Source: Bacteroidales bacterium (GTDB lineage Bacteria > Bacteroidota > Bacteroidia > Bacteroidales > B18-G4). From it: 64,000 nt of DNA. Location: assembly GCA_018400295.1 (NCBI GenBank), contig JAGYMZ010000008.1, positions 1 through 64,000 on the forward strand, in the 5' to 3' direction. Position 1 is the stretch's first letter, and each line of letters starts with the position of its first letter. The notes under the pieces are model-generated. The model did no database searches and was not told the DNA's origin. It saw only the letters and a program-made list of their open reading frames with translations. Shown in pieces: positions 12,573 to 29,695 of the stretch. The position numbers and the translations under genes are program-made.

Positions 12573-13373
12573 TTACCTGGCGTTGTCGAACACCATCACC
12601 GCTTTTGGTTCAAAGATCTGGAAGGTGAAGGTTTCGGTGAAATACAACTTGACAAATTCTTCGTCGTGCGATTCGTATCCGATGGACAGGTCCTGACCCA
12701 GCGTCATGACCAGGTCTTCCGTGGTATCCTTGACCATAAGGGCCCCGTCAATGTTGGTGTTTTCAATGATCTGCCCTTCGATGATCTCCCTTACCTGACG
12801 TTGCAGGGGATAGCCCGGCGAGTTGCTGATGAGCTTGTGCCATTTCTTGGGATTGATCACCAGGGTATAGGGGCCCGTAATGGTTTCCCTTTCGAAGCGC
12901 GTTACCGCTTCCGAGATCGCTTTAAGGAATTCGTGGGAGTTATCCGGCAGGGACAGGTGCTCGAATTCAGAAGCCGGGAGCAGTCCTTCGATGCCTGCGG
13001 ATTTAAGCCCATGGTAGATGGCCCTTTCTTCAAATTCGGATATTTTGCAGGCTGCTTCGGCCACCGGGTCCAAATCCACATCTTCGGCTCCCCTTTCCAG
13101 GTTGTCAAGTTCCCAAATGTTCAGTTTGAAGGGAATGCGGGGTTCGATCAGAGGCAATACCTGGCGGATGCCGTATTTGACTTCCCCTTCCTGGTTTTCA
13201 GGAATATCCAGCTTGCCTGTGGATACAGACGATGCTTCAAATCCGTGGGGCCCGTCGATGGTGACGAATTTTCTTGCGGTGAGCAAAGATTTGAAAGCCC
13301 TTTTGGCTTCTTCGTTAATTTCTTCCCATCCTTTTTCTGTGATCGGTGCTAAACTCTTTTTAAATATATCCAT
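12573..13373 (-). CDS. Family 1 encapsulin shell protein
   Basis: Self-assembling HK97-fold protein that forms a hollow nanocompartment enclosing cargo enzymes. The 266-residue length and motifs fit linocin-M18/family 1 encapsulins: an N-terminal MDIFKKSLAPITEKGWEEIN helix (which lines the lumen and binds cargo peptides), ARKFVTIDGPHGFE, PRIPFKLNIWELDNLERGAED, a VTRFERETITGPYTLVINP segment and a C-terminal ESHDEEFVKLYFTETFTFQ. The 12-nt gap to the upstream ferritin-like gene defines a two-gene cargo/shell operon. The compartment is expected to store iron and protect from oxidative stress. T number cannot be read from sequence. Confidence 0.97.
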   Translation of the reverse strand: MDIFKKSLAPITEKGWEEINEEAKRAFKSLLTARKFVTIDGPHGFEASSVSTGKLDIPENQEGEVKYGIRQVLPLIEPRIPFKLNIWELDNLERGAEDVDLDPVAEAACKISEFEERAIYHGLKSAGIEGLLPASEFEHLSLPDNSHEFLKAISEAVTRFERETITGPYTLVINPKKWHKLISNSPGYPLQRQVREIIEGQIIENTNIDGALMVKDTTEDLVMTLGQDLSIGYESHDEEFVKLYFTETFTFQIFEPKAVMVFDNAR

Positions 13374-13385
13374 TGTTTCCTCCGC

Positions 13386-13730
13386 TTACTTTGAATTTTT
13401 AATACCAAGATCTGATCCGTTTTTTCCATGATCTTCCTGTTCACCTTCTTCCAGTCCGGTTATGTCTCCTTCGGTGAAAAGGTATGTGCGCAACTCCTCA
13501 TCCCATCCGGGCATGTTCCTGCGCAGCCATTCCAGGGTCATGCAGGCGTGTTCGATCTCTTCGTCACGGTTATGGGCCATGATCTTCCTCAGTTGCTCAT
13601 CATCCGAAAGGTCCACCCGCTGGTGGTACCAATCCACGGCCTCAATTTCTTCCTTCAGGCTGTTGAGCGCCCGGGTAAAATTCCTTGTTTCTTTGCTCAA
13701 TTCGTTTGCTGGTTCGTGATAATCTGACAT
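13386..13730 (-). CDS. Encapsulated ferritin-like protein (EncFtn) with cargo-loading peptide
   Basis: Ferroxidase cargo of the encapsulin. From the ATG at 13730 the protein has 114 residues. Residues 1-90 match the two-helix EncFtn domain, with putative di-iron ligands E28, E58 and H61 (LKEEIEAVDWYHQR and HNRDEEIEHACMTLEW) and the conserved W34/Y35 near the entry site; numbering by analogy to the R. rubrum protein. A Gly/Glu-rich linker leads to the C-terminal tail SDLGIKNSK (106-114), which resembles the canonical SDLGIGSL cargo-loading peptide. EncFtn monomers form a decameric ring and oxidise Fe(II) that is then stored in the shell. The longer upstream in-frame start is not needed. Confidence 0.94.
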   Translation of the reverse strand: MSDYHEPANELSKETRNFTRALNSLKEEIEAVDWYHQRVDLSDDEQLRKIMAHNRDEEIEHACMTLEWLRRNMPGWDEELRTYLFTEGDITGLEEGEQEDHGKNGSDLGIKNSK

Positions 13731-13905
13731 AGGTTGAATTTTTAATTGCATGTACATAAAAATACAATATGGACAGGCGGTTTAAAACAGCCTGATATAT
13801 GATTGTTGATGTGTCACGGGCAACAGGGTTTTTACACTGCCGGTGGCAGGACCCGCCCGCAACCCTTTATCTGTTATATAATATACAATTAAATGCATGA
13901 TTTGT

Positions 13906-15024: not shown

Positions 15025-16197
15025 TCAGGAATAGAGGAATTCGCCGTGATTTGTGCGGATGGTAAGCCGGCTGTTCCGGGCTTCTTCTGTGTGTCCGATG
15101 ACCTTTGCCTCCACCTCGTACGAAGCGGCTGTTTCAATGATCCTTTCGGCACATGCTTCCCGGGCATAGATCTCCATACGGTGCCCCATGTTGAATACCC
15201 GGTACATCTCTTCCCAGGATGTTCCGGATTGTTCCCGGATGAGACGGAACAGCGGGGGTACTTCAAACATGTTGTCCTTGATGATGTGCAGCTTGTCCGC
15301 AAAGTTCAGCACCTTTGTCTGGGCCCCGCCGCTGCAATGTATCATGCCGTGTATGTTTTTGCGGTCATATTCCAGGATGTCGCGGACCACCGGTGCATAG
15401 GTGCGGGTGGGGGAGAGCAGCAGCTTGCCAATGTCCGTGCCCGGGATGCCGGAGGGGTCGGTCAGTTTCTTTTTGCCGGAATAGGCCAGGTTTTTTGGTA
15501 TTTGGTTGTCGAAGCTTTCGGGGTACTTTTTCCGGTAGGATCTGTGAAGGACATCGTGGCGGGCCGAAGTCAGCCCGTTGCTTCCCATGCCCCCGTTGTA
15601 GCGCTCCTCGTAAATAGCCTGTCCGGAGGATGACAGTCCGATGATCACATCCCCGGGCATGATCTTGTTCTCCAGGATCTTTGACCGTTTGGTGCGGGCC
15701 GTGACCGTGGAATCCACCACAACCGTCCGAACCAGATCGCCCACATCGGCGGTTTCCCCCCCGGTGAGATAAAGGCCTATGCCATAGCGTTCCATCTGAC
15801 GGGTGAATGCGGCTGTGCCTTCTATGATGGCTGCGATCACTTCGCCGGGGATCAAATGCTTGTTCCTTCCGATGGTGGAGGATATCAGGATGTTGCCGGT
15901 GATGCCCACACACAGCAAGTCGTCCGTGTTCATAACGATGGCATCCTGCGCAATGCCCTCCCATACCGAAAGATCCCCGGTTTCCTTCCAGTACATATAG
16001 GCAAGGGACGATTTTGTCCCGGCACCGTCGGCATGCATAACGTTGCAATAATCTTCATCCCCGCCGAGCATGTCCGGCATGACCTTGCAGAAGGCATTGG
16101 GGTAAAGCCCTTTATCCAGATGATGGACGGCTGCGTGTACATCTTCCTTGGTGGCGGAGACCCCGCGGGCATTGTATCGTGAATCCTGATCTGTCAT
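15025..16197 (-). CDS. purM: Phosphoribosylformylglycinamidine cyclo-ligase (AIR synthetase)
   Basis: Closes the imidazole ring of purine biosynthesis, converting FGAM to AIR with ATP. The 390-residue length is longer than E. coli PurM (345), as is common in Bacteroidota. Recognisable segments include NVMHADGAGTKSSLAY, MNTDDLLCVGITGN, the TGGETADVGDLV loop and IIGLSSSGQAIY. The C-terminal part carries MIHCSGGAQTKV and RVFNMGHRMEIYA. The start is the ATG at 16197. It is separated from the OmpA gene by 120 nt that hold an imperfect direct repeat, and from prfA by a short gap with a promoter box. Confidence 0.95.
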   Translation of the reverse strand: MTDQDSRYNARGVSATKEDVHAAVHHLDKGLYPNAFCKVMPDMLGGDEDYCNVMHADGAGTKSSLAYMYWKETGDLSVWEGIAQDAIVMNTDDLLCVGITGNILISSTIGRNKHLIPGEVIAAIIEGTAAFTRQMERYGIGLYLTGGETADVGDLVRTVVVDSTVTARTKRSKILENKIMPGDVIIGLSSSGQAIYEERYNGGMGSNGLTSARHDVLHRSYRKKYPESFDNQIPKNLAYSGKKKLTDPSGIPGTDIGKLLLSPTRTYAPVVRDILEYDRKNIHGMIHCSGGAQTKVLNFADKLHIIKDNMFEVPPLFRLIREQSGTSWEEMYRVFNMGHRMEIYAREACAERIIETAASYEVEAKVIGHTEEARNSRLTIRTNHGEFLYS

Positions 16198-16239: not shown

Positions 16240-16356
16240 AGGATCATTCTTATCATGGAAACATCAAGTTGCATCATATCCGGGGCAAAAATTGCCTTAT
16301 CCCTTCAGGATAAAGGATCATTCCTTATATTCAAACGTCAGTTGCATCATATCCGG
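16240..16356. repeat. Imperfect 44-bp direct repeat spanning the 3' end of the OmpA gene
   Basis: Two copies, 16240-16283 and 16314-16356, with a 74-bp period. They share AGGATCATTC(C)TTAT at the left and a 17-bp identical block (AGTTGCATCATATCCGG) at the right, with a diverged middle. The right copy contains the stop codon and last codons of the OmpA-family gene; the left copy lies wholly downstream of it. It looks like an old tandem duplication of the gene tail. Confidence 0.75.
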
Positions 16357-18786
16357 ATCTATCCGGTAGGAACCGACTTTTTCAAGCAGCCACTTTCCGA
16401 AGACAATGGGATGGCGAAGCCGCTGGCTGACCACCATTTCCATATCTTCAAGGGTTTTGCTGCCAATCCGGAGTGTTTCCACCACAAAAACAGCGTTGTT
16501 CCGTATGGTGTTCCGTCCGAGGATCTCTTTGGGGTCGCCCCTGAAATCCTCTTTATCTATGATGCCCTTGTTCAGCATGTCCAGCGCTTTTTGTTCGGAA
16601 ACCTGGGCTTTCATGTTGGCGTCGTAAACAAATTCCTGGTTAAAGCCATTGATAATGCAAGGCATGATGTACTCCCCGGTTTTGGGTTCCTTTTTGAACT
16701 GAACCACATTATCTTCCGGGTTGATCTCTATTTCTACCTTTGCTATGTCCGACCTTTTTGTGGATTTGGGGATATAATCCTTGCTGAGTACGCGGAATTC
16801 CGTGCGCCGGTTCAGCTGGTGTGCTGCTTCTCTGACCTCCTCGTTTGGCAGTTCGTCAATGTATTCCTCGGTCAGAACGGTCCCTTTTTCAAAGGTGTAT
16901 CCTTCCCGGGTCATGTCCTTTTTCAGTTCCCTGGGTTGTCTTTCACCATACCCCTTCGCCACCAGTCTGTCCGGGTCGATGCCCCGGATGACCAGGTAAT
17001 CCACCACAGACTGGGCACGCTTCTGGGATAAAATATCGTTCCGTTCATCGGTGTCCCGGGCATCCGTGTGAGAGGCCAGCTCAACGATGATCCTGGGGTT
17101 TTCGTCCAGTGTGGTTATGAGGCCCTGGAGGGAGTCTTCGTATTGTGGTTTCAGGTTCCACTTGGCAAGGTCATAGAGGATCTCAGGCAATACGATGGGT
17201 TCTTCGGGTATGGGCCTCAGTACGAAGTCGCGGACAAAGTCCCTGCCCACCTCTTCGCCCACGGTCGTCAGCGTGGTTTTTTCATTAAAATAGTTTTCTT
17301 TGGAAACCACGATCTCATAGGTGGTGTTTGTGTTAACCTGGGATTTTCCAAAGAGATAAAACCCTTCTTCATTGGTACGGGTTGATACAGAGATCCCGTC
17401 CGATCCTATCAGGGTGACGGCGGCATCTTCCACGAACTGAAGCGTACGGTCGTCGGTTACCGTACCCCGGATCGTAAATTCGACCGGAGGAATGATAAAG
17501 GAGAAAATATCTTCCTGTCCCTTCATTCCCCTTCTGTCGGAAGAAAAGAAGCCCCGTTCCTCTTCGGGATGAAATACAATGGCAAAGTCGTTGGCTACTG
17601 AATTCATAGGATACTGCAGGTTTTTTGGCTGGCTCCAGTTGCCTTCTTCGTCGAGCTTACTATAGAACAGGTCCAGCCCACCCATGCCCGGATGTGCATC
17701 GGAAGCAAAATACAGTATCGTATCGTTGCGCAGGAAGGGGAACATTTCGTTGCCGGGCGTATTGACCATGTCTCCGATGTTGTGTGGTCTGCCGAACGCT
17801 TCATTGGTTGATTCCCGGAAAGCTACCCAGATGTCCTTTCCGCCAAAGCCGCCCTCACGGTCGGAGGCGAAATAAATGATGAGCTGGTTTGTACTGAGTG
17901 TCGGATGCCCGATCGCTTCGGTGGAATCGTTGCTCAACTTGACCAACTCCGGTTTGCTCCAGGAACGGCCCGAACGGGACGACTTATAGATCTGGCAGCC
18001 CATGCGTTTTTTTTCCACGTTTGGGCAACGCGTAAAATACAGGGTTTTAAAGGTACTGCTCATGGCTGGGGCGCCTTCGTTGGCTTTGGTATTGATCCCG
18101 TCTTCTTCGGTCGTGAGCAGGATTGGTTCGCTCCATTCGTTTTTGCGGTCAACCCTTGTATAGAAAAGGTCGCTGAAGTTTTGGCCGGTCCATTCATCGG
18201 TTGCCTTTCCCGTAGCCCCTTCACGTGTTGATGTAAAGATCAGGTCATTGAAGTTGTTGCTGGCATAGGTGGGTGCGAAATCCGCCACACGGGAATTGAT
18301 CTTTTTGATGTATTCCACCTCGTGCTTGGTGGGATTGTCCACCCATTCCTTTACCCTTTTACTGGCCTGCACTCCATTCGGACCCCGCGGGTCGCCGGGC
18401 ACTTTTTCCGAATACATCTTGTAGTATTCCCTGGCTTCTTCAAAATCCTCATTCATCATCTGGATATCTGCATAGTACAGGAGGATTTCCGGGTCTTTGC
18501 GCTCGTAATTGGCGCGTATGAGCCTTTTATAATAGGCCCTGGCCTTGCGGTAATCGCCGGTATAACGATAGCATTCAGCCAACTGGTAAGTAATGCGGTT
18601 TTTTTCTGCACGGTCGTTCTTTACCCTGGAATATGCTTTTTGATATCGCTCAATGGCCACCTGGTAACGGTTATCCTCAAAGGCTTCATCGGCGCTTTGG
18701 GTTATTGCCCGCTTTTTCTGTCCGTAGGAAACGGTCCCGATCAACATCAGGAATATCGCAAGTAAAAAGATGTGTTTTTGTTTCAT
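16318..18786 (-). CDS. PorE-like TPR/PD40/OmpA protein with degenerate aspartyl-protease-like tail
   Basis: Envelope protein of 822 residues. A signal peptide (LLAIFLMLIGTVSYG) is followed by TPR-like repeats (about 30-130), a PD40/WD40-like propeller (about 165-430, with repeated YFASD and FTSTREG blades), a carboxypeptidase-regulatory-like domain (about 435-525) and a peptidoglycan-binding OmpA domain (about 530-670, ASHTDARD and NRRTEFRVL). This is the arrangement of the T9SS-associated protein PorE, although the tail differs. Residues about 705-820 resemble a retropepsin-fold domain, IMPCIINGFNQEFVYDAN, but the catalytic D-T/S-G is D722-A723-N724, so it is probably inactive. It lacks a lipobox. 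The gene stands between tatA and purM. Confidence 0.8.
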   Translation of the reverse strand: MKQKHIFLLAIFLMLIGTVSYGQKKRAITQSADEAFEDNRYQVAIERYQKAYSRVKNDRAEKNRITYQLAECYRYTGDYRKARAYYKRLIRANYERKDPEILLYYADIQMMNEDFEEAREYYKMYSEKVPGDPRGPNGVQASKRVKEWVDNPTKHEVEYIKKINSRVADFAPTYASNNFNDLIFTSTREGATGKATDEWTGQNFSDLFYTRVDRKNEWSEPILLTTEEDGINTKANEGAPAMSSTFKTLYFTRCPNVEKKRMGCQIYKSSRSGRSWSKPELVKLSNDSTEAIGHPTLSTNQLIIYFASDREGGFGGKDIWVAFRESTNEAFGRPHNIGDMVNTPGNEMFPFLRNDTILYFASDAHPGMGGLDLFYSKLDEEGNWSQPKNLQYPMNSVANDFAIVFHPEEERGFFSSDRRGMKGQEDIFSFIIPPVEFTIRGTVTDDRTLQFVEDAAVTLIGSDGISVSTRTNEEGFYLFGKSQVNTNTTYEIVVSKENYFNEKTTLTTVGEEVGRDFVRDFVLRPIPEEPIVLPEILYDLAKWNLKPQYEDSLQGLITTLDENPRIIVELASHTDARDTDERNDILSQKRAQSVVDYLVIRGIDPDRLVAKGYGERQPRELKKDMTREGYTFEKGTVLTEEYIDELPNEEVREAAHQLNRRTEFRVLSKDYIPKSTKRSDIAKVEIEINPEDNVVQFKKEPKTGEYIMPCIINGFNQEFVYDANMKAQVSEQKALDMLNKGIIDKEDFRGDPKEILGRNTIRNNAVFVVETLRIGSKTLEDMEMVVSQRLRHPIVFGKWLLEKVGSYRIDPDMMQLTFEYKE

Positions 18787-18864: not shown

Positions 18865-19245
18865 TTATCGCATGGATCCATCTTCCGTGGAATTATCGTG
18901 TGGTTCCCTGTGTCCCGTATCCCCGGCTTCCTTTCCTTTACCGTCTTTTCCCTGCTGCGTGTTGCCGGGCTTGTCCCCGTCGCCCGGTTCGTTCTTTCCG
19001 TGCGGTTTTCTTTGTTGCTTGATCGCATCGTCGGTGTTCATGGAAACCGTGTCCTTTACGGTGTTGACTTCCCGGTTGATCTCATCCCTGATCTGGTTGG
19101 AGGCCTTTTTGACTTCGTTGAGCCCTTTCCCCAGTTTCCTGGCAATTTCAGGGATCTTGCCCGGGCCAAAGACAATAAACACTACAATGAGGATCAGCAG
19201 GATCTCACCTCCGGAAATATCCAGAAAGAGCAGGGGTGGTATCAT
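18865..19245 (-). CDS. tatA: Twin-arginine translocase TatA/TatB-type subunit
   Basis: Small Tat component that forms the membrane-permeating assembly for folded proteins. The chosen start at 19245 gives 126 residues, beginning MIPPLLFLDISGGEILL; two in-frame ATGs lie just upstream (19254 and 19263) and would add up to six residues, but the promoter box at 19268-19275 leaves almost no leader for the first. A single membrane helix (LLILIVVFIVF) is followed by the GPGKIPEIARKLGKG amphipathic hinge/helix of TatA and a long charged, low-complexity tail. No tatC is in the window, so it must be elsewhere. Upstream secDF is separated by a strong bidirectional terminator. Confidence 0.85.
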   Translation of the reverse strand: MIPPLLFLDISGGEILLILIVVFIVFGPGKIPEIARKLGKGLNEVKKASNQIRDEINREVNTVKDTVSMNTDDAIKQQRKPHGKNEPGDGDKPGNTQQGKDGKGKEAGDTGHREPHDNSTEDGSMR

Positions 19246-19267
19246 AGGGTACATTAAAGCCATTACA

Positions 19268-19328: not shown

Positions 19329-22300
19329 TTATTTTCTTTTTTTGCCGCCCTTTGCGCCTTTGGCAGCTACTTTCTTCATTTTTTTACCCTGTCCCATGAG
19401 GTCAAAGGCGATCGGACTGGCATTGAACAGGGATGAGTATGTCCCGATCAGGATGCCGACCAGCAGGGCAAAGGTGAACCCACGGATGATCTCCCCGCCA
19501 AAAATAAAGATGATGATAAGCACTACCAGGGTTGTGCCCGAGGTATTGATGGTACGGGCCAGCGTACTGTTCAGTGCATTGTTGATGTTTGTCCTCAGGT
19601 CTTTTTTCGGATAAAGTCCGGTAAATTCCCGGATCCTGTCGAAGATGATCACGGTATCGTTGACCGAATATCCGATGATCGTCAGGATGGCAGCTATAAA
19701 GGCCTGGTCTATTTCCAGACTGAATGGCAGGATGTTATAAAAGAGCGAGAACAGGCCGATGGTGATCAGTGAATCGTGGAAGAGGGCGATTACGCCGGCC
19801 AGTCCGAATTGCCATTTCCTGAACCGGATCGCGATATAGGTAAAGATCACGATCAGTGCCAGTGTGATGGCCATGATGGATTTGTTCCGGATGTCGTGCG
19901 CTATGGTCGGCCCTACCTTCTGGGAACTGAGGATGCCTATGAGCTTATCGCTGGCTTCCACATCTGCGGCAAATGTTTTGTATGTGATCTCCTGGTTGTC
20001 ATAATATCCGATCAATCCGTTATATAGCTTGGTTTGTATGAGCGAGTCCACACGGGGTTCATTAATGTCGATCATGTATTTGGTGGTGATCTTCACCTGG
20101 GTGGATGGCCCGAATGTTTTAACTTCTGGTGCGATGCCTTCAAACTCTGCCGTGAGTGTTTCTCGCAGGTCGGTGGTAGAGACGGAATTGTCGAAGCGCA
20201 CCACGTAGGTCCGGCCACCGGAGAAATCGATCCCATAGTTAAGCCCCCGCAGGAAAAGTGAAGCAACGCCGATGATAATGATTATGGAGGAAAAGATGTA
20301 AGCGCCTTTCCGCATTTTCAGAAAATCCACGTTCGCATTGGCCAGGAAATGACTGGTAAACTTATTGGCAAAGTTAATTTTTCGGTTCCGGTCAAGGATC
20401 CAGGTAAATACCAGTCTGGATATAAAGATGGCTGAGAAGAGTGAGGAAAGAATACCGATGATCAGTGTGGTTGCAAATCCCTGTACCGGTCCCGTACCAA
20501 AGGTATACAGCACGATACCGGTCAGCAGCGTGGTAACGTTGCCATCGATGATGGCAGAGTACGCATTTTTGTATCCATCGTTGATTGCCAGCCGTATCCC
20601 TTTACCGGCCCGTACTTCTTCCTTGATCCGTTCATAAATGATCACGTTGGCATCCACGGCCATACCGAGTGTCAGGACAATGCCGGCGATACCCGGCAGG
20701 GTCAGGACGGCACCCAGGGATGCAAGCACGCCAAAGAGGAAAAATATATTGGTCAGCAGCGCCAGGTCAGATACCCAACCGGCCCGGTTGTAATATATGA
20801 TCATGTATAGGAGTACGAGGACGAAGGCCATCACGAAGGACCACAATCCTGCGTTGACCGCTTCTTTTCCGAGAGAGGGCCCTACAACGGCTTCCTCCAC
20901 GATCCTGGCAGGTGCAGGGAGCTTGCCGGCTTTCAGGATGTTCGCAAGGTCCTTGGCTTCTTCCACTTCCATGTTCCCGCCGGAAATGGACGACATACCG
21001 CTGGGGATCTCACTGTTCACATTGGGATAGGAATATACATATCCGTCAAGTACAATGGCGATCTGCTTGCCGATGTTGTCTCCTGTGATCCTTCTCCAGG
21101 CACGGGTCCCTTCCGCATTCATGGTCATGGATACTTCAACACGTCCGTTCTGGTCATAGTCCTGGCGTGCATCCACGATCACATCGCCGCCCAGGGCTGC
21201 CGTATTATTTCGTCCGGTTGCCTTGAGTGCAACAAGCTCCAATATGTTGCTGCCTTCCTGGCGCGGCTTGACGGTCCAGGCCATTTCCAGGTCGCGGGGG
21301 AATATGGTCTGTACTTTCTTAAGCATTGTGTTGATCCTGGCTGTATCCTTGATGGCTGCATATCCGATGGTCGCAGCATCTACCGGGCGGTTTTCCTGGT
21401 CCACGTTGATCATCAGGTAAGCAAACAGGGGGTTTTCACTGGCGTACTCTTCAAAGGAACGCTCTTCCCCGGAAAGGCTTGTGTCGCCTTCAATCTGGTC
21501 GAGCAGGGATCCTTCTTCTGCCGTATCCTGCGATGCGGTCAAGTCTGCCAGCTCCTCCTCTTTGATATCGCCTGCTTCATCTTCCGGCAGGAGGTCGGCG
21601 GCCGTGCTTTGATCAGCCACTTCCTCAGGTTCTGCGGTTTGTTCGGCTTCCGCATATTTTTCCGTTGCTTCGATGGTACGCAGCCGCTTGTTGGCATCCG
21701 AAAGATACTGGACGATCTCCGGGAGCTGATAGGTTTCGTAGAATTCCAGCTGTGCTGTACCCTGAAGCAGCTTACGCACACGTGCAGGGTCTTTGATGCC
21801 GGGCAGCTCCACCAGGATGCGGCCCGATGTGGCGAGTTTCTGAATGTTGGGCTGAGCCACGCCAAAGCGGTCGATCCTTGTGCGGAGGATGTTAAACGAG
21901 CGGTCGATGGCTCCTTCGGCTTCATTCCGTATGACATCAAGGACTTCCTCGTTGGTGGAGTTGTATGTTATTTTGTCTTTCAGTTCAACGGTGTTAAAAA
22001 CCGCTGCCATGCTTTCGTTGGGTGCTATTTCCTCCCAGGTTTCCCCGAAAAGGGTCACGAAATCCTTGGAGCTGCTGCGTTGTTCCTGATACGTCTGGCT
22101 GAGCACTTCTTTGAAGGTGGGGTTCTGGCTGTATCCTGACAATGCGTTGACGATATCCCCTACGTTGATCTCCAGGGTTACGTTCATGCCCCCCTTCAGG
22201 TCCAGTCCGAGGTTGATTTCCCTTTCTTTGGTTTCCTGGTAAGTATATTCTCTGATCAGGATGTTGTACACAACCTGATTTGACATAGAGTCAAGGTAAT

Positions 22301-22517
22301 AGGTTTGCCTGGCCTTATGTATTGAATCCAGTAATATTCTCTCCCTGACCTCATCGCCACTGGCCAGTTTTTTGGCTGTCCTGTCGGCTGCTTCACTGTA
22401 TGCATACTTTTTGGCATCCCTTTCCACCTTTACGGTAACGAATGTAAATGAAAGCTGGAAAAGGCAAACCAGGGCAAAAGCTATAGCAAAGAATTTTATA
22501 GCACCTTTGTTTTGCAT
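19329..22517 (-). CDS. secDF: Fused protein translocase subunits SecD-SecF
   Basis: Membrane protein that uses the proton gradient to pull exported proteins through SecYEG. Length is 1062 residues, consistent with the single-chain SecDF of Bacteroidota. The SecD part has GLDLKGGMNVTLEI near residues 105-118 and a large periplasmic domain that includes an acidic, low-complexity insert at about 270-350 (Glu/Ala/Asp-rich). The SecF part starts with a second set of membrane helices at about 725 and carries GIDFSGGRTYVVRF. Both halves have the six-helix RND-type bundles (for example NDTVIIFDRIRE). The promoter at 22559-22589 is strong. A terminator follows the stop. Confidence 0.97.
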   Translation of the reverse strand: MQNKGAIKFFAIAFALVCLFQLSFTFVTVKVERDAKKYAYSEAADRTAKKLASGDEVRERILLDSIHKARQTYYLDSMSNQVVYNILIREYTYQETKEREINLGLDLKGGMNVTLEINVGDIVNALSGYSQNPTFKEVLSQTYQEQRSSSKDFVTLFGETWEEIAPNESMAAVFNTVELKDKITYNSTNEEVLDVIRNEAEGAIDRSFNILRTRIDRFGVAQPNIQKLATSGRILVELPGIKDPARVRKLLQGTAQLEFYETYQLPEIVQYLSDANKRLRTIEATEKYAEAEQTAEPEEVADQSTAADLLPEDEAGDIKEEELADLTASQDTAEEGSLLDQIEGDTSLSGEERSFEEYASENPLFAYLMINVDQENRPVDAATIGYAAIKDTARINTMLKKVQTIFPRDLEMAWTVKPRQEGSNILELVALKATGRNNTAALGGDVIVDARQDYDQNGRVEVSMTMNAEGTRAWRRITGDNIGKQIAIVLDGYVYSYPNVNSEIPSGMSSISGGNMEVEEAKDLANILKAGKLPAPARIVEEAVVGPSLGKEAVNAGLWSFVMAFVLVLLYMIIYYNRAGWVSDLALLTNIFFLFGVLASLGAVLTLPGIAGIVLTLGMAVDANVIIYERIKEEVRAGKGIRLAINDGYKNAYSAIIDGNVTTLLTGIVLYTFGTGPVQGFATTLIIGILSSLFSAIFISRLVFTWILDRNRKINFANKFTSHFLANANVDFLKMRKGAYIFSSIIIIIGVASLFLRGLNYGIDFSGGRTYVVRFDNSVSTTDLRETLTAEFEGIAPEVKTFGPSTQVKITTKYMIDINEPRVDSLIQTKLYNGLIGYYDNQEITYKTFAADVEASDKLIGILSSQKVGPTIAHDIRNKSIMAITLALIVIFTYIAIRFRKWQFGLAGVIALFHDSLITIGLFSLFYNILPFSLEIDQAFIAAILTIIGYSVNDTVIIFDRIREFTGLYPKKDLRTNINNALNSTLARTINTSGTTLVVLIIIFIFGGEIIRGFTFALLVGILIGTYSSLFNASPIAFDLMGQGKKMKKVAAKGAKGGKKRK

Positions 22518-25293: not shown

Positions 25294-27717
25294 ATGAAGC
25301 ATTTTACCAAGTATTTGATGTTTATGATGGCAATTTTCATCCTGGGATTTGCGAATTTTGCGAGTGCTCAGAGAAGCCAGGGAGGATTGCCGCCGAGCTT
25401 TATGTACGATGACGTACCGGAAGCTGTTGAGATCAGAAATTTTTCATCCCCCAATATGGCCCCCATTTATGAAGAAGATGCCCGCAATGCGGAGGCGGGT
25501 TTTCCAAAACCATACCGGGTCGGGGTTTCCGTGCCGGTGAATCTGGATATTGAGGGTGCCGGGGAATGGACGGACCTTCCTGATGGAGGCAAGATCTGGA
25601 GGGTAACGCTGGTGGCACCGGGCGCCAAAGCCCTGGGCGTGTATTTTGATGATTTCTGGCTTCCTTATGGTGGTGAATTATTCCTGTATAATGAAAACAA
25701 GGACCAGATACTGGGTGCTTTTACCGAGGAGAACAACAATGCCATGTGTACCTTTGCCACACAGCTTGTGCAGGGCGACAAGGTGACGGTGGAATATTTC
25801 CATCCGGCCGGAACCAGCATTATGCCGAATCTGAGCATCTCGGAAATGTCTTATAATTACCGGGGCGTGAGTTTTGATTATGTGGAACGGGGCGGTTCCC
25901 TCTGGTGCATGATCAATATTAACTGCTCCCCGGAGGGCGATGACTGGCAGGATGAGAAACGGGGTGTGGTCAAGCAATATATGAAGATCGGCTGGGGATA
26001 TTACCTTTGTACGGGGTCATTGCTGAACAACACAGACCAGGATCTTAAGCCGTATGTTTTGACGGCCTTTCATTGTGGTGAAGGAGCCAGCACTTCCGAC
26101 CTTAACCAGTGGGTATTCTATTATAATTATGAATCTTCCACATGTTCCGGGAACTGGGGCCCACAGAATCAAACCCAGACAGGTGCCCAAAAACGGGCAG
26201 AAGGGGATTATGAGCCCGGGTCCGATTTTATGCTCCTGGAACTGAATTCAAATGTGCCTACTTCTTACAATGCTTATTTCAATGGTTGGGACCGGCGGAA
26301 TGTCGGGGCCGACAGTGGTGTGAACATACACCATCCTGCCGGGGATATCAAGAAAATATCCACATTTAAGGATCCGGCCGTTTCTTCCCAGTGGAACAAT
26401 TACGGCGTTCTTTCACACTGGAAGATATGGTTCGCTGAAACGCCCCACGGCACTTCCATTACCGAAGGTGGTTCTTCCGGATCCCCCTTGTTCAATCAGG
26501 ATGGATTGGTCGTTGGCGACCTGACCGGTGGCCCTCAGGATGATTGTGAAAATCCGCTCTACAGCCTTTACGGAAAGCTATCCTATTCCTGGGATCAGAT
26601 GGGCAGCGGATCCTCCCAGCAGCTGAAACCCTGGCTGGATCCCATCGATGCAGGCGTGGAAACCTGGGAGGGAACCTATAACGGGACCCTGCCTTCCCCC
26701 GATTTTTCGGCCGATGAAACACACATACAGCCCGGTGAATCGGTTACGTTTACCGATGCAACGACGGGCAACCCGCTGGAATGGGAATGGACCTTCCAGG
26801 GCGGTGACCCGTCTTCATACATGGGACCGGATCCTCCACCCATTACCTATGCCGATGCAGGTAAGTATACGGTTACCCTGACGGCTTCCAATACCCTGGG
26901 AGCAAATGCGAAGGATAGTGTGGATATGATCGTTGTCGGGGCCCCGGACCCCGATTTTTCTGCCGATAATAATTACATTGAAGTCGGGCAGTCGGTAAAT
27001 TTCTTTGATGAATCCTCCAATGATCCGATACAATGGGCATGGCAGTTCCCGGGCGGAGTACCGGATACATCCAATGATCAGGATCCGGAGGACATTCTGT
27101 ATGCTGAATCCGGCAACTATGATGTTACCCTTGTGGTTACAAATGATATCGGTACGGATACGCTGGTAAAGGACGATTATGTTACTGTTGGCGGACCCTT
27201 TGCTGATTTTGAGGCGGATCAGACAAGCATCCTTGAAGGGGAATCTGTTACGTTTACCGACTTGTCCGTGAATGAACCCACAACCTGGTCGTGGAAATTT
27301 TTTGGCGGCTCGCCGGCAGGTTTTAATGGTCAGGAACCGCCGGAGATCGTATACAACAATCCGGGTGAATACGATGTGAAACTTACCGTTTCCAATGAAC
27401 TCGGGATGCATTATATACAGAAATCCGGATATATTGTTGTCGGTGGCGTGGGTATAGGTGAAACGGCCCTTGATGCGCAGGTGGCCATTTATCCCAATCC
27501 CTCCGGAGGGGAAGTGACCATCGGCTTGTTTGATTCTGCGGAAGATGCCCGTTCCATCAGTATTATGAATGCCCTGGGTGTTGACGTGGCGGAAATTCGC
27601 ACCACGGATGATGCGGTTTATACAATGGACCTTTCGGAACAACCCAATGGACTCTATTTTGTGCGGGTGAAATACAAAGACCGGATCGTGAATAAGAAGC
27701 TTTACCTGATGAGATAA
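25294..27717 (+). CDS. Secreted trypsin-fold serine protease with three PKD domains and T9SS sorting domain
   Basis: An 807-residue exported protease related to lysyl-endopeptidase-type enzymes. After a signal peptide (residues 1-25) there is an N-terminal domain, then a catalytic domain at about 205-460 with H260 in LTAFHCG, D311 in PGSDFMLLEL and S395 in EGGSSGSPLF. Several cysteines (C205, C211, C239, C261, C284) suggest disulphides. Three PKD domains begin near 469, 556 and 645, each opening with a P/A-D-F-x-A-D motif. A T9SS type A domain forms the last about 80 residues, starting at VAIYPNPSGG and ending in KKLYLMR. The cargo is predicted to be surface-attached or secreted. Specificity is not readable. 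Confidence 0.93.
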   Translation: MKHFTKYLMFMMAIFILGFANFASAQRSQGGLPPSFMYDDVPEAVEIRNFSSPNMAPIYEEDARNAEAGFPKPYRVGVSVPVNLDIEGAGEWTDLPDGGKIWRVTLVAPGAKALGVYFDDFWLPYGGELFLYNENKDQILGAFTEENNNAMCTFATQLVQGDKVTVEYFHPAGTSIMPNLSISEMSYNYRGVSFDYVERGGSLWCMININCSPEGDDWQDEKRGVVKQYMKIGWGYYLCTGSLLNNTDQDLKPYVLTAFHCGEGASTSDLNQWVFYYNYESSTCSGNWGPQNQTQTGAQKRAEGDYEPGSDFMLLELNSNVPTSYNAYFNGWDRRNVGADSGVNIHHPAGDIKKISTFKDPAVSSQWNNYGVLSHWKIWFAETPHGTSITEGGSSGSPLFNQDGLVVGDLTGGPQDDCENPLYSLYGKLSYSWDQMGSGSSQQLKPWLDPIDAGVETWEGTYNGTLPSPDFSADETHIQPGESVTFTDATTGNPLEWEWTFQGGDPSSYMGPDPPPITYADAGKYTVTLTASNTLGANAKDSVDMIVVGAPDPDFSADNNYIEVGQSVNFFDESSNDPIQWAWQFPGGVPDTSNDQDPEDILYAESGNYDVTLVVTNDIGTDTLVKDDYVTVGGPFADFEADQTSILEGESVTFTDLSVNEPTTWSWKFFGGSPAGFNGQEPPEIVYNNPGEYDVKLTVSNELGMHYIQKSGYIVVGGVGIGETALDAQVAIYPNPSGGEVTIGLFDSAEDARSISIMNALGVDVAEIRTTDDAVYTMDLSEQPNGLYFVRVKYKDRIVNKKLYLMR

Positions 27718-27767
27718 TATTCTGATGTTGGACAGCCATTCTGTAAAATGGCAACAATGAAATGATC

Positions 27768-27796
27768 AACACCCTCACAACGGGGGTGTTTTTTTA
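27768..27796 (+). terminator. Intrinsic terminator after the first T9SS protease
   Basis: A 7-bp stem AACACCC (27768-27774) pairs with GGGTGTT (27784-27790), followed by T residues. It lies 50 nt after the protease stop codon. The next promoter box overlaps its T-run. Confidence 0.8.
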
Positions 27797-27802
27797 TCTT
27801 TG
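27795..27802 (+). promoter_or_regulatory. Bacteroidota -7 box for the second T9SS protease
   Basis: TATCTTTG, an exact TAnnTTTG match, ends 21 nt before the ATG at 27824. It starts inside the T-tract of the preceding terminator, so the termination and initiation signals are fused. No TTG -33 element is seen. Confidence 0.55.
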
Positions 27803-27823
27803 TTGAAACAACGGATATTTCTC

Positions 27824-29695
27824 ATGCGAAAACATTTCCCCATTGCTGTGGCTGTACTGGCCGTTTTTCATTCCACGGCCCTTGTCGGACAGGTCAGCCG
27901 GGGTGGCCTGCCACCGGGGTATACCGGCAAGGCAACCTTGTCTGATATGCCTGTGGTGACGGTGGAGAAACCCGGTTTGGCCGGATACACCAATCCGCAA
28001 CCCAAGGCAGTTCCGCCACGGGTAGGCGTGAACATACCCGTTACAATATCTTTTTCCGAAGCCGGGCAATGGCAGGACCGGGATATCTGCCGCCTGATGG
28101 TCAGGGCACCGGGAGCACTTGCGGTTGGCTTGTATTATTCGGATTTTGTGATTCCCGAAGGGGGCCGTCTTTTTATATATAATACAGAACAGACATATTA
28201 TATCGGCGCTTTTGATGCTGCCAGCAACCGGGATGGAGGAAAGTTTGCCACGGAACTTATTCCCGGCGAGGAGGTCATCCTGGAATATACCGGTCCCCGG
28301 GATGAAAGAAACCGCCCCCGTATTCTGATCAATGAAGTGTTGTATGCCTTTCAGAACCTGGGGCCTTTAATGCCCGGCCGCGGGTTTGGCGATGCGGGTC
28401 CCTGTGAGGTGAACATCAATTGTTCCGAAGGGGATAACTGGAAAAATGAGAAGCGGGGCGTCGCCCGGGTCCTTGTTAAAGACGGGGGCAGCTCTTTTTG
28501 GTGCAGTGGTTCCCTGATCAATAATGTCCGCCGCGACAGCCTTCCGTATTTCCTGACCGCCAACCACTGTGGGCCGAATGCTACAGCCGGTGATTATGCC
28601 CAGTGGATCTTTTATTTTAATTATGAGGCCCCTGGATGTGATGAACCCCTTCAAGATCCTGGCTCCAACACCATTTCCGGTTCTTCATTGATCGCCAGAG
28701 GGGTAAATGATCCACCCGCCGGGTCTGATTTTAAATTGTTGTTGCTGGATGAGGAATTGCCCTTCCATTATAACCCATACTTCAATGGATGGAACCGCTC
28801 AAACGCACCGGCAATTTCCGGGGTGGGCATCCATCACCCCCAAGGGGATGTAAAAAAGATATCTACCTTCACGCAGGAGGCGACATCAACGGCATATAAC
28901 GGATCATCCCCCCAAGGGGATGAAAAGTACTGGCGGGTTACCTGGGAAAGCACCAACCATGGGCATGGTGTGACAGAAGGAGGCTCATCCGGTTCACCCC
29001 TGTTTGATAACCATCACCGGATCGTGGGAACACTCACGGGAGGCGCTGCTTCCTGTCAAAACCCAACTGCACCGGATTATTACGGAAAGATTTGGTATTC
29101 ATGGGAATCCAACGGATCATCCAGTGCGTTTCAACTCCATCCCTGGCTTGATCCGGACAATGCGGGAGTTACGGAACTGGAAGGGTTTGGGTACGGAGAT
29201 ATGCTGATCTCGGCGTTTATCGCCGACACCAATGAGATAGCCCTGGGCAGTGTGGTAAATTTTCAGGACCTTTCCTCGGGTAAGCCCGATTCCTGGGAAT
29301 GGTATTTTGAAGGGGGCGCACCCTACCGGTCTTCCGTCCGGGTACCGGGTGAAATAACCTATGCTGTGGCAGGCATATATGATGTGCGGCTGGTGGTTGG
29401 CAAAGGCACACATACAGACACACTTGTGAAGAAAGACTACATTAAGGTGAAGGCCCGGATATACCCCAATCCGGCAACAAGTTGGTTTTATTTGGACCTG
29501 GGTAATGAGCCGGCCGGCGGCGTGCGGGTTTGCATTAACGATCTGCATGGCAACCTGGTTTATGAATGGAGACAGGATGACAAAGTGGCCGGCAGGCGCC
29601 GCATCGTTCTTCCTTTCCTGAGAAAAGGGATGTATATTGTGGAGTATACTTTGAATGGCGATGTGCTGCCCCCGGCCAAGCTGATCATAGAGTAG
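27824..29695 (+). CDS. Secreted trypsin-fold serine protease with one PKD-like domain and T9SS sorting domain
   Basis: A 623-residue paralogue of the protease just upstream. The start at 27824 gives a proper signal peptide (MRKHFPIAVAVLAVFHSTAL); an in-frame ATG-like start 24 nt earlier lies inside the promoter. The catalytic triad is H248 (LTANHCG), D302 (AGSDFKLLLL) and S389 (EGGSSGSPLF). It keeps the disulphide pattern and the mature N-terminus QVSRGGLPPGY, shared with QRSQGGLPP in the upstream protein. A single PKD-like region precedes the C-terminal T9SS domain (ARIYPNPATSWF at about 546). The two genes probably arose by tandem duplication, followed by loss or gain of PKD modules. Confidence 0.92.
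   Translation: MRKHFPIAVAVLAVFHSTALVGQVSRGGLPPGYTGKATLSDMPVVTVEKPGLAGYTNPQPKAVPPRVGVNIPVTISFSEAGQWQDRDICRLMVRAPGALAVGLYYSDFVIPEGGRLFIYNTEQTYYIGAFDAASNRDGGKFATELIPGEEVILEYTGPRDERNRPRILINEVLYAFQNLGPLMPGRGFGDAGPCEVNINCSEGDNWKNEKRGVARVLVKDGGSSFWCSGSLINNVRRDSLPYFLTANHCGPNATAGDYAQWIFYFNYEAPGCDEPLQDPGSNTISGSSLIARGVNDPPAGSDFKLLLLDEELPFHYNPYFNGWNRSNAPAISGVGIHHPQGDVKKISTFTQEATSTAYNGSSPQGDEKYWRVTWESTNHGHGVTEGGSSGSPLFDNHHRIVGTLTGGAASCQNPTAPDYYGKIWYSWESNGSSSAFQLHPWLDPDNAGVTELEGFGYGDMLISAFIADTNEIALGSVVNFQDLSSGKPDSWEWYFEGGAPYRSSVRVPGEITYAVAGIYDVRLVVGKGTHTDTLVKKDYIKVKARIYPNPATSWFYLDLGNEPAGGVRVCINDLHGNLVYEWRQDDKVAGRRRIVLPFLRKGMYIVEYTLNGDVLPPAKLIIE

Follow-up and report, generated by a model that had tools for sequence, protein, structure and literature searches.

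A 64,000 nt stretch of DNA from a Bacteroidales bacterium (GCA_018400295.1, contig JAGYMZ010000008.1, positions 1 to 64,000 of the forward strand; here called the window) encodes a protein of 822 amino acids (aa) that resembles PorE, which in Porphyromonas gingivalis has been proposed to anchor the type IX secretion system (T9SS) to the cell wall (PMC7192894). Beyond its peptidoglycan-binding OmpA domain the protein carries a tail that is almost certainly a non-catalytic retropepsin fold, conserved for function. The novelty lies in a T9SS-type wall anchor that bears a conserved but dead retropepsin, and we infer that this domain probably serves T9SS anchorage by binding or dimerising.

The best NCBIfam family for the open reading frame (ORF) at 16318-18786 is NF052230 (T9SS_PorE), which covers residues 13–667 with 592.9 bits, 7 short of the curated cut-off of 600; the runner-up, CHU_0125, scores 406.4 bits against a cut-off of 620. 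Because of this shortfall, and because the N-terminus has no lipobox cysteine, the protein is called PorE-like. A preliminary description of the window had named it an OmpA-family protein, and this holds both by Pfam (OmpA limits, residues 542–623) and by the match to the OmpA domain structure 6top of P. gingivalis PorE (PG1058). The domains found by Pfam and phmmer follow the same order as the four domains of PorE: TPR, PD40 beta-propeller, carboxypeptidase regulatory-like domain (CRD) and OmpA, with the CarboxypepD_reg match (31.8 bits) falling just below its cut-off of 32.3. Three residues of the OmpA domain at positions of peptidoglycan contact (D575, N583 and R590) are invariant across 13 aligned PorE-like proteins, and their spacing is that of the contacts D576, N584 and R591 of PorE (PMC7463736). 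PorE itself, as described in PMC7192894, ends at the OmpA domain, whereas the window protein adds, after a linker, a pseudo-retropepsin of 133 aa (residues 690–822) that falls beyond the stretch covered by the NF052230 model.

PorE has a lipoprotein signal, while the signal segment of the window protein, read by eye, contains no cysteine. A lipobox is visible by eye in at least three tailed relatives (L023, L068 and L082). The idea that the tail substitutes for a lipid anchor was set aside, most PorE-like proteins of the order, tailed or tail-less, having no lipobox by eye. Nor is a rigid packing of the tail against the OmpA domain supported: in an AlphaFold2 model of residues 530–822, the predicted local distance difference test score (pLDDT) of the linker is below 50 (model residues 147–160) and the overall predicted template modelling score (pTM) is 0.48. 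Flexibility of the tail relative to the OmpA domain is likewise unproven, because the OmpA part is only moderately predicted in this model.

Relatives were gathered by searching 295 genomes of the order with the window tail as a single sequence, and 60 related genomes with the whole protein, and the matches were read. This gave 87 PorE-linked tails, all of the order and including that of the window, from 84 genomes in 36 families; four of these genomes (G002, G003, G005 and G007) belong to the 60 relatives and not to the 295. Alignment A1 consists of the window tail and 44 of the 86 others (45 rows). Thirty-six retropepsin domains without a PorE-like body were also collected: the window tail as query found 15 of them in the order, and A1 found the 21 that lie in other orders. 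A2 is an alignment of 15 such domains carrying DTG or DSG. From a list of at least 577 relatives the 80 top-ranking ones were taken as a set of named loci; since this set leans to the nearest, tailed ones and overlaps the order set, it gives no estimate of frequency. Alignments A5 and A6 consist of the window tail with 63 and 50, respectively, of the 78 tails of this named set.

Taken singly, the window tail gives little: TIGR02281 (clan AA protease) matches with 14.7 bits (E 0.026) against a cut-off of 57.95, a PF13975 search returned no match, and SHOCT_2, the sole Pfam row on the tail (E 0.016), was taken as chance. The aligned tails of A1 give far more. PF13975 (gag-asp_proteas) is matched by 29 and TIGR02281 by 26 of the 45 rows (E up to 0.1), and all 15 rows of A2 match PF13975. 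Comparison of A1 with A2 by hhalign gave a probability of 99.9 and an E-value of 6.4e-34 over 129 columns. Searched against the PDB, the A1 profile placed a Rickettsia retropepsin first (E 0.0017), the other two kinds of match (E 0.46 and 0.92) being unrelated; the A2 profile recovered the Rickettsia enzyme with E 4.7e-12 and DDI1 with E 1.4e-5. A template-free AlphaFold2 model built from PorE-like tails only (A5) reached a tail pLDDT of 93.4 and a pTM of 0.84. Foldseek with this model returned chains of the Rickettsia conorii retropepsin as its first nine matches (best 5c9f, E 9.4e-08), and VIA-align gave 5c9d a Z-score of 11.4 (root mean square deviation, rmsd, 3.5; 112 aligned residues), tied with DDI1 domains such as 7efy (Z 11.3, rmsd 2.6, 103 aligned). 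All 50 of the 50 entries among the VIA-align matches listed are, from their descriptions or as we take them to be, aspartic proteases and their relatives. The evidence from the single sequence is therefore weak and that from the family strong, because of the A1 matches, the hhalign result and the AlphaFold2 fold. Together, profiles and models confirm residues 690–822 as a separate domain with a predicted retropepsin fold of the aspartic protease clan AA. The strings quoted in the preliminary description are present in the tail, with DAN at residues 722–724, and the retropepsin-type layout it proposed agrees with the predicted fold.

The catalytic triad of retropepsins, DTG or DSG, is found in none of the 87 PorE-linked tails. 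It is likewise missing from all 78 tails of the named loci, a set overlapping the first, and from all seven domains of six PorE-like proteins of other orders in the same class. Among relatives without a PorE-like body it is present in 15 of 15 domains of the same order and in 34 of 36 class-wide, the two exceptions reading DFG and DTV. Both search queries were made from tails lacking DTG, so they carry no bias toward DTG matches. Within the 87 tails the first motif position is D in 42 and E in 10, the second is T or S in three, and the third is G in eight. DAN occurs in three (the window, L033 and L053), the remaining tails having lost DTG in many different ways, and a DAN-specific motif was rejected. 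The two checks proposed in the preliminary description, on the fold and on the conservation of tail and triad, both favour its reading: the predicted fold is retropepsin-like, and the tail is widespread in PorE-like proteins and does not revert to DTG or DSG in any copy read. One point needs correcting, in that DAN itself is not conserved. The suggestion that the domain is a pseudo-protease gains support from the combination of a retropepsin fold with the missing triad in all three sets. The motif counts leave out two fragments, one of 140 aa (L116, genome G057) and one of 71 aa that contains DTG in a stretch with four stops (L227, genome G294), as well as three unread matches (G279:C19, an 867-aa frame; G152:C66, 620 aa; and G118:C3:107390-107782, 176 aa).

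Loss of the cutting site has not been accompanied by decay. The ratio of nonsynonymous to synonymous substitution rates (dN/dS, Nei-Gojobori) in the tail is 0.024–0.139 in 44 of the 45 closest pairs listed, the remaining pair having infinite dS, and 0.015–0.125 in the body in the same comparison; some dS values are near saturation, and many pairs come from one group of rumen metagenome-assembled genomes and are not independent. By these ratios the tail is under purifying selection. Where the constraint lies was compared by mean conservation percentile between PorE-like tails and relatives without a PorE-like body, the latter group being more diverse in context and the alignment and segments being chosen by the analyst. 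The DTGAS columns stand at 0.93 in the relatives and 0.23 in PorE-like tails (0.17–0.31 across 30 random subsamples of 36), and the PLLLGQS loop at 0.79 and 0.48. The order is reversed for the motif KxDFxGD at residues 745–751 (0.69 in PorE-like tails vs 0.38 in relatives), the N-terminal segment (0.55 vs 0.32), the C-terminal strand (0.65 vs 0.36) and a flap-like hairpin (0.65 vs 0.46), where the labels flap and dimer strand are presumed ones, transferred from retropepsins in general. Residue 748 is F in 86 of 87 PorE-like tails and in 9 of 36 relatives, and F818 is kept in 79 of the 87, a constraint above that in the relatives.

Of the 295 genomes sampled from the order, 90 were matched by the A1 profile. 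For 80 of the 90, reading the match showed the tail following a PorE-like body; two more are probable (G057 and G279), seven have non-PorE matches only and one is unread (G152). In the class sample, 28 of 395 genomes had an A1 match, 25 of them outside the order, and 19 of the 25 have non-PorE ORFs. Tailed PorE-like proteins outside the order were found in G678 and in five genomes of one family (f172), whose five tailed genes have purM close downstream. Among the 80 named loci, tail and body share one open frame in 78, two of them partial (L128 and L182), while the remaining two (L135 and L201) are cut by contig ends; in one record (L014/L177) the body is split into two frames.

Many PorE-like relatives end at about residue 675 and have no tail, which makes the tail a clade-specific addition. 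The preliminary description had counted orthologues without any tail as evidence against its reading; they occur for part of the group, and the fold is unaffected by them. A FastTree phylogeny of 93 bodies spanning most of the protein (64 tailed and 29 without a tail) sets 24 tail-less proteins apart from the rest by a branch whose support is 99. At least five changes of tail state are needed on this tree, three of them forced by well-supported branches, and one of the five is an artefact, L011 having been scored as tail-less only because its contig ends. The simplest reading, given local support values and a root that was not inferred, is probably a single fusion followed by a few losses. Three proteins (L022, L025 and L026) lie inside the tailed group yet lack the tail; a hidden tail was ruled out for them, since their ends are low-complexity stretches.

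Some proteins carry the domain in other arrangements. L221, a PorE-like ORF of 1019 aa, carries a degenerate retropepsin-like domain twice in tandem (17.6 and 26.7 bits), with a low-complexity linker between the copies. L219, a non-PorE ORF of 518 aa, also has tandem retropepsin-like domains, the first with DFG and the second with DTG, and may be a natural single-chain pair. Four longer non-PorE proteins of 685–742 aa (L105, L109, L111 and L117) have a DTG retropepsin domain at the C-terminus.

Several T9SS genes were found in the host genome. A SprA translocon gene lies at C10:8850-15929 and scores above cut-off; 59 of the 60 relatives also have a SprA match, 58 of them above cut-off. Two PorP-family proteins lie at C3:27896-28810 and C14:9861-10805, and there are 79 Por_Secre_tail matches with E-values no higher than 0.001, of which the window holds five. 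These five window ORFs had been described as T9SS cargo proteins, and each does carry the domain; in one search a single ORF fell just short of the cut-off (26.0 bits, cut-off 27), and in the other all five exceeded it. From SprA, the PorP family and the Por_Secre_tail matches, the host can be taken to have a T9SS. The A2 profile searched against the host genome matched only the PorE-like tail (E 2.0e-19) and no other retropepsin of that type, while PF13975 found one DTGAS ORF of another subfamily on contig C60 (19.4 bits, below the cut-off of 28.2). This aspartyl-protease-like ORF (G000:C60, L249) is 160 aa long and open at the contig end.

In P. gingivalis, PorE forms a complex together with PorP and PG1035, a type B cargo, cross-links supporting a contact between PorE and PorP (PMC9143113), and it co-isolates with Sov at low abundance (PMC8754138). 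No description linking a retropepsin or aspartic protease with PorE, with OmpA in Bacteroidetes or with the T9SS was found in a search that left most subscription papers and bioRxiv outside its reach. The available literature found on pseudoproteases and retropepsins together concerns Babesia.

Among known retropepsins, the closest solved fold is that of APRc (ApRick) of Rickettsia (5c9b, 5c9d and 5c9f), which is also the best PDB profile match to the tail. APRc is an active peptidase, whereas DTG is absent from the PorE-like tail, a fused periplasmic domain. The Bacteroidota retropepsins with DTG or DSG (A2; PF13975/TIGR02281 type) are homologous to the tail over the whole domain and have a similar helix-loop after the active-site strand; they are its opposite in keeping the triad and having no PorE-like body. 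Secreted retropepsins of the bacterial envelope are known in the Rlo peptidases of Pseudomonas aeruginosa, which are active, related to RimB and without a PorE-like part (PMC12239564); they were set beside the tail by description only. DDI1 and DDI2, like the protein here, have the retropepsin fold within a multidomain protein, in their case a cellular adaptor (Foldseek, VIA-align), although DDI2 is reported to be an active endoprotease (PMC7369636), unlike the tail. A precedent from further away appears in the VIA-align list for the tail model, namely basic 7S globulin (Z 8.1). In this protein and other inactive plant proteins of pepsin fold, an aspartic-protease fold is used for binding and not as a peptidase; the group is two-lobed, eukaryotic and secreted, and has no known relation to secretion anchors.

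Since the cutting site is lost in every copy read, the tail probably no longer cuts proteins but grips them. That it is a module for binding or dimerisation is suggested by the peptidoglycan contacts, the linker predicted to be disordered, the PorE-PorP contact, the co-isolation with Sov, and the observation that APRc binds immunoglobulin G without needing catalysis (PMC8649778). The OmpA domain would hold the PorE-like periplasmic protein on peptidoglycan, and the tail, tethered by the linker predicted to be disordered, would act as a protein-protein interaction module. It might dimerise PorE-like molecules through the terminal strands that pair retropepsins, or its old substrate groove might capture an extended segment of a T9SS partner; either way it would help to position the T9SS, or a PorP-type anchoring complex, on the cell wall. 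A bolder and rather doubtful version is that, in a large part of the Bacteroidales, the dead retropepsin catches a strand of the cargo signal or of the PorP barrel, or pairs anchors into a scaffold.

Several points weigh against assigning the tail this role. The tail-less PorE of P. gingivalis means that the tail is not essential to the T9SS generally, and the changes of state on the body tree mean that it can be lost. The NF052230 cut-off is missed by 7 bits and a lipobox of the P. gingivalis type is absent. The OmpA part of the two-domain model is of moderate quality (block pLDDT about 50–91), and for this reason its pTM of 0.48 says little about how the domains are placed.

The two forms of the binding or dimerisation proposal can also be taken separately, as narrower alternatives. 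A tail that only pairs two PorE-like molecules, doubling the anchorage on peptidoglycan and leaving the groove free of ligand, is possible yet unlikely. The N- and C-terminal segments of retropepsins make the dimer sheet, and it is these segments that are more conserved in PorE-like tails; the two tail-like copies of L221 could pair internally. The tandem, however, is a single case, and a pure dimeriser would not need the flap-like hairpin, which is kept as well. That hairpin would suit a peptide or protein receptor, in which the groove, deprived of its catalytic residues, would grip a strand of a T9SS partner such as the tail of a PorP-type barrel or the C-terminal signal of a cargo protein. 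Retropepsins hold extended peptides beneath the flap. The genome supplies candidate ligands in its 79 Por_Secre_tail matches and two PorP-family proteins, and both the PorE-PorP cross-links (PMC9143113) and the catalysis-independent binding by APRc (PMC8649778) lend this version some plausibility. Against it, conservation of the groove floor, both at DTGAS and at PLLLGQS, is much lower than that seen in the relatives, so that a single conserved ligand there is not indicated, and the receptor on its own is again a tentative, rather unlikely explanation.

It is improbable that the tail regulates an active retropepsin of its own cell or serves as a decoy for it. A non-PorE relative with DTG or DSG was also read in 6 of the 80 genomes that have a PorE-linked tail, and the host itself has the DTGAS ORF on C60, although the other 74 of the 80 genomes gave no non-PorE relative to either tail query, queries that would miss distant active proteases like the C60 ORF, which were sought in the host genome only. 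That the tail is a functionless remnant in decay, or that the fusion was created by mis-assembly, is very improbable and already contradicted. All copies read have lost the active site, and some lineages inside the tailed group have no tail, but the dN/dS of the tail is low and close to that of the body, some of its residues are more conserved than in the relatives, and it is in frame with the PorE-like body in 78 of the 80 named loci. An aspartic protease that is active in some unorthodox way is scarcely credible: the first motif position is D in 42 and E in 10 of the 87 tails, but few of them keep T or S at the second (three) or G at the third (eight), and the loop around the motif is little conserved.

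The tailed gene has a stable setting. Many of the named loci show the order secDF - tatA - porE-like - purM-like - prfA - pyrF, and among the 80, whose flank lengths differ, same-strand neighbours include secDF in 60, tatA in 46, purM in 72, prfA in 41 and pyrF in 37. purM lies within about 0.5 kb of the PorE-like gene in 64 of the 72 loci that have it. It also adjoins the PorE-like gene in five of the eight tail-less loci with flanks (L022, L024–L026 and L028–L031), which supports the orthology of tailed and tail-less forms. The purM-like gene of the window is taken to be a divergent relative of purM because of its low score against a cut-off of 236.35; its position is very stable. Coordinates of these genes and of the parts of the PorE-like protein are collected in the table.

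Table. Features of the PorE-like protein and its neighbouring genes, in positions of the window.
Feature	Position	Strand	Basis
PorE-like protein with C-terminal pseudo-retropepsin, 822 aa	16318..18786	-	ORF, NCBIfam and Pfam
Signal-peptide-like segment, residues 1–23, without lipobox cysteine	18718..18786	-	By-eye reading of the sequence
TPR domain, residues ~38–135	18382..18675	-	Pfam TPR_16/TPR_19
PD40 beta-propeller, residues ~167–430	17497..18288	-	Pfam PD40; outer limits after those of P. gingivalis PorE (PMC7192894)
CRD, residues ~438–527	17206..17475	-	Pfam CarboxypepD_reg; outer limit by analogy
OmpA_C-like peptidoglycan-binding domain, residues 533–667	16786..17190	-	phmmer to PDB 6top, E 1.6e-26
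Linker, residues 676–689, predicted disordered	16720..16761	-	AlphaFold2 of residues 530–822
Pseudo-retropepsin domain (predicted fold), residues 690–822 (133 aa)	16321..16719	-	AlphaFold2, Foldseek, VIA-align, hhalign
DAN, residues 722–724, position of catalytic DTG/DSG	16615..16623	-	Alignment columns
KEDFRGD, residues 745–751 (motif KxDFxGD)	16534..16554	-	Conservation higher in PorE-like tails than among relatives
tatA/E-like gene, upstream	18865..19263	-	NCBIfam best 57.2 bits, below cut-off 77
secDF	19329..22517	-	NF009585, 1343.4 bits
purM-like gene, directly downstream, synteny anchor	15025..16197	-	TIGR00878, 101 bits, below cut-off 236.35

Two other features of the window were observed. 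At 12573-13757 on the minus strand, between prfA and pyrF, there is a gene for an encapsulin shell of family 1 (NF041155, 276 bits) with an encapsulin-associated ferritin-like gene (TIGR04535, 159 bits). Neither gene turned up in the 80 related loci, where matches to pyrF are reached in 37 and to prfA in 41, and the pair may therefore be an insertion. At 25294-29695 on the plus strand, two adjoining genes have products with trypsin-like, PKD and T9SS sorting domains.

Over a quarter of the genomes sampled from the order (80 of 295) carry a conserved extra domain of which the literature search found no description, on a protein best studied in P. gingivalis, where it ends with the OmpA domain. 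The domain is a well-documented case of a retropepsin fold whose active site is lost group-wide, while other positions are conserved and selection is maintained. It points to a testable interaction site in a poorly understood part of the T9SS, and if the bolder version above is true, the T9SS would have a retropepsin-derived docking module that P. gingivalis lacks.

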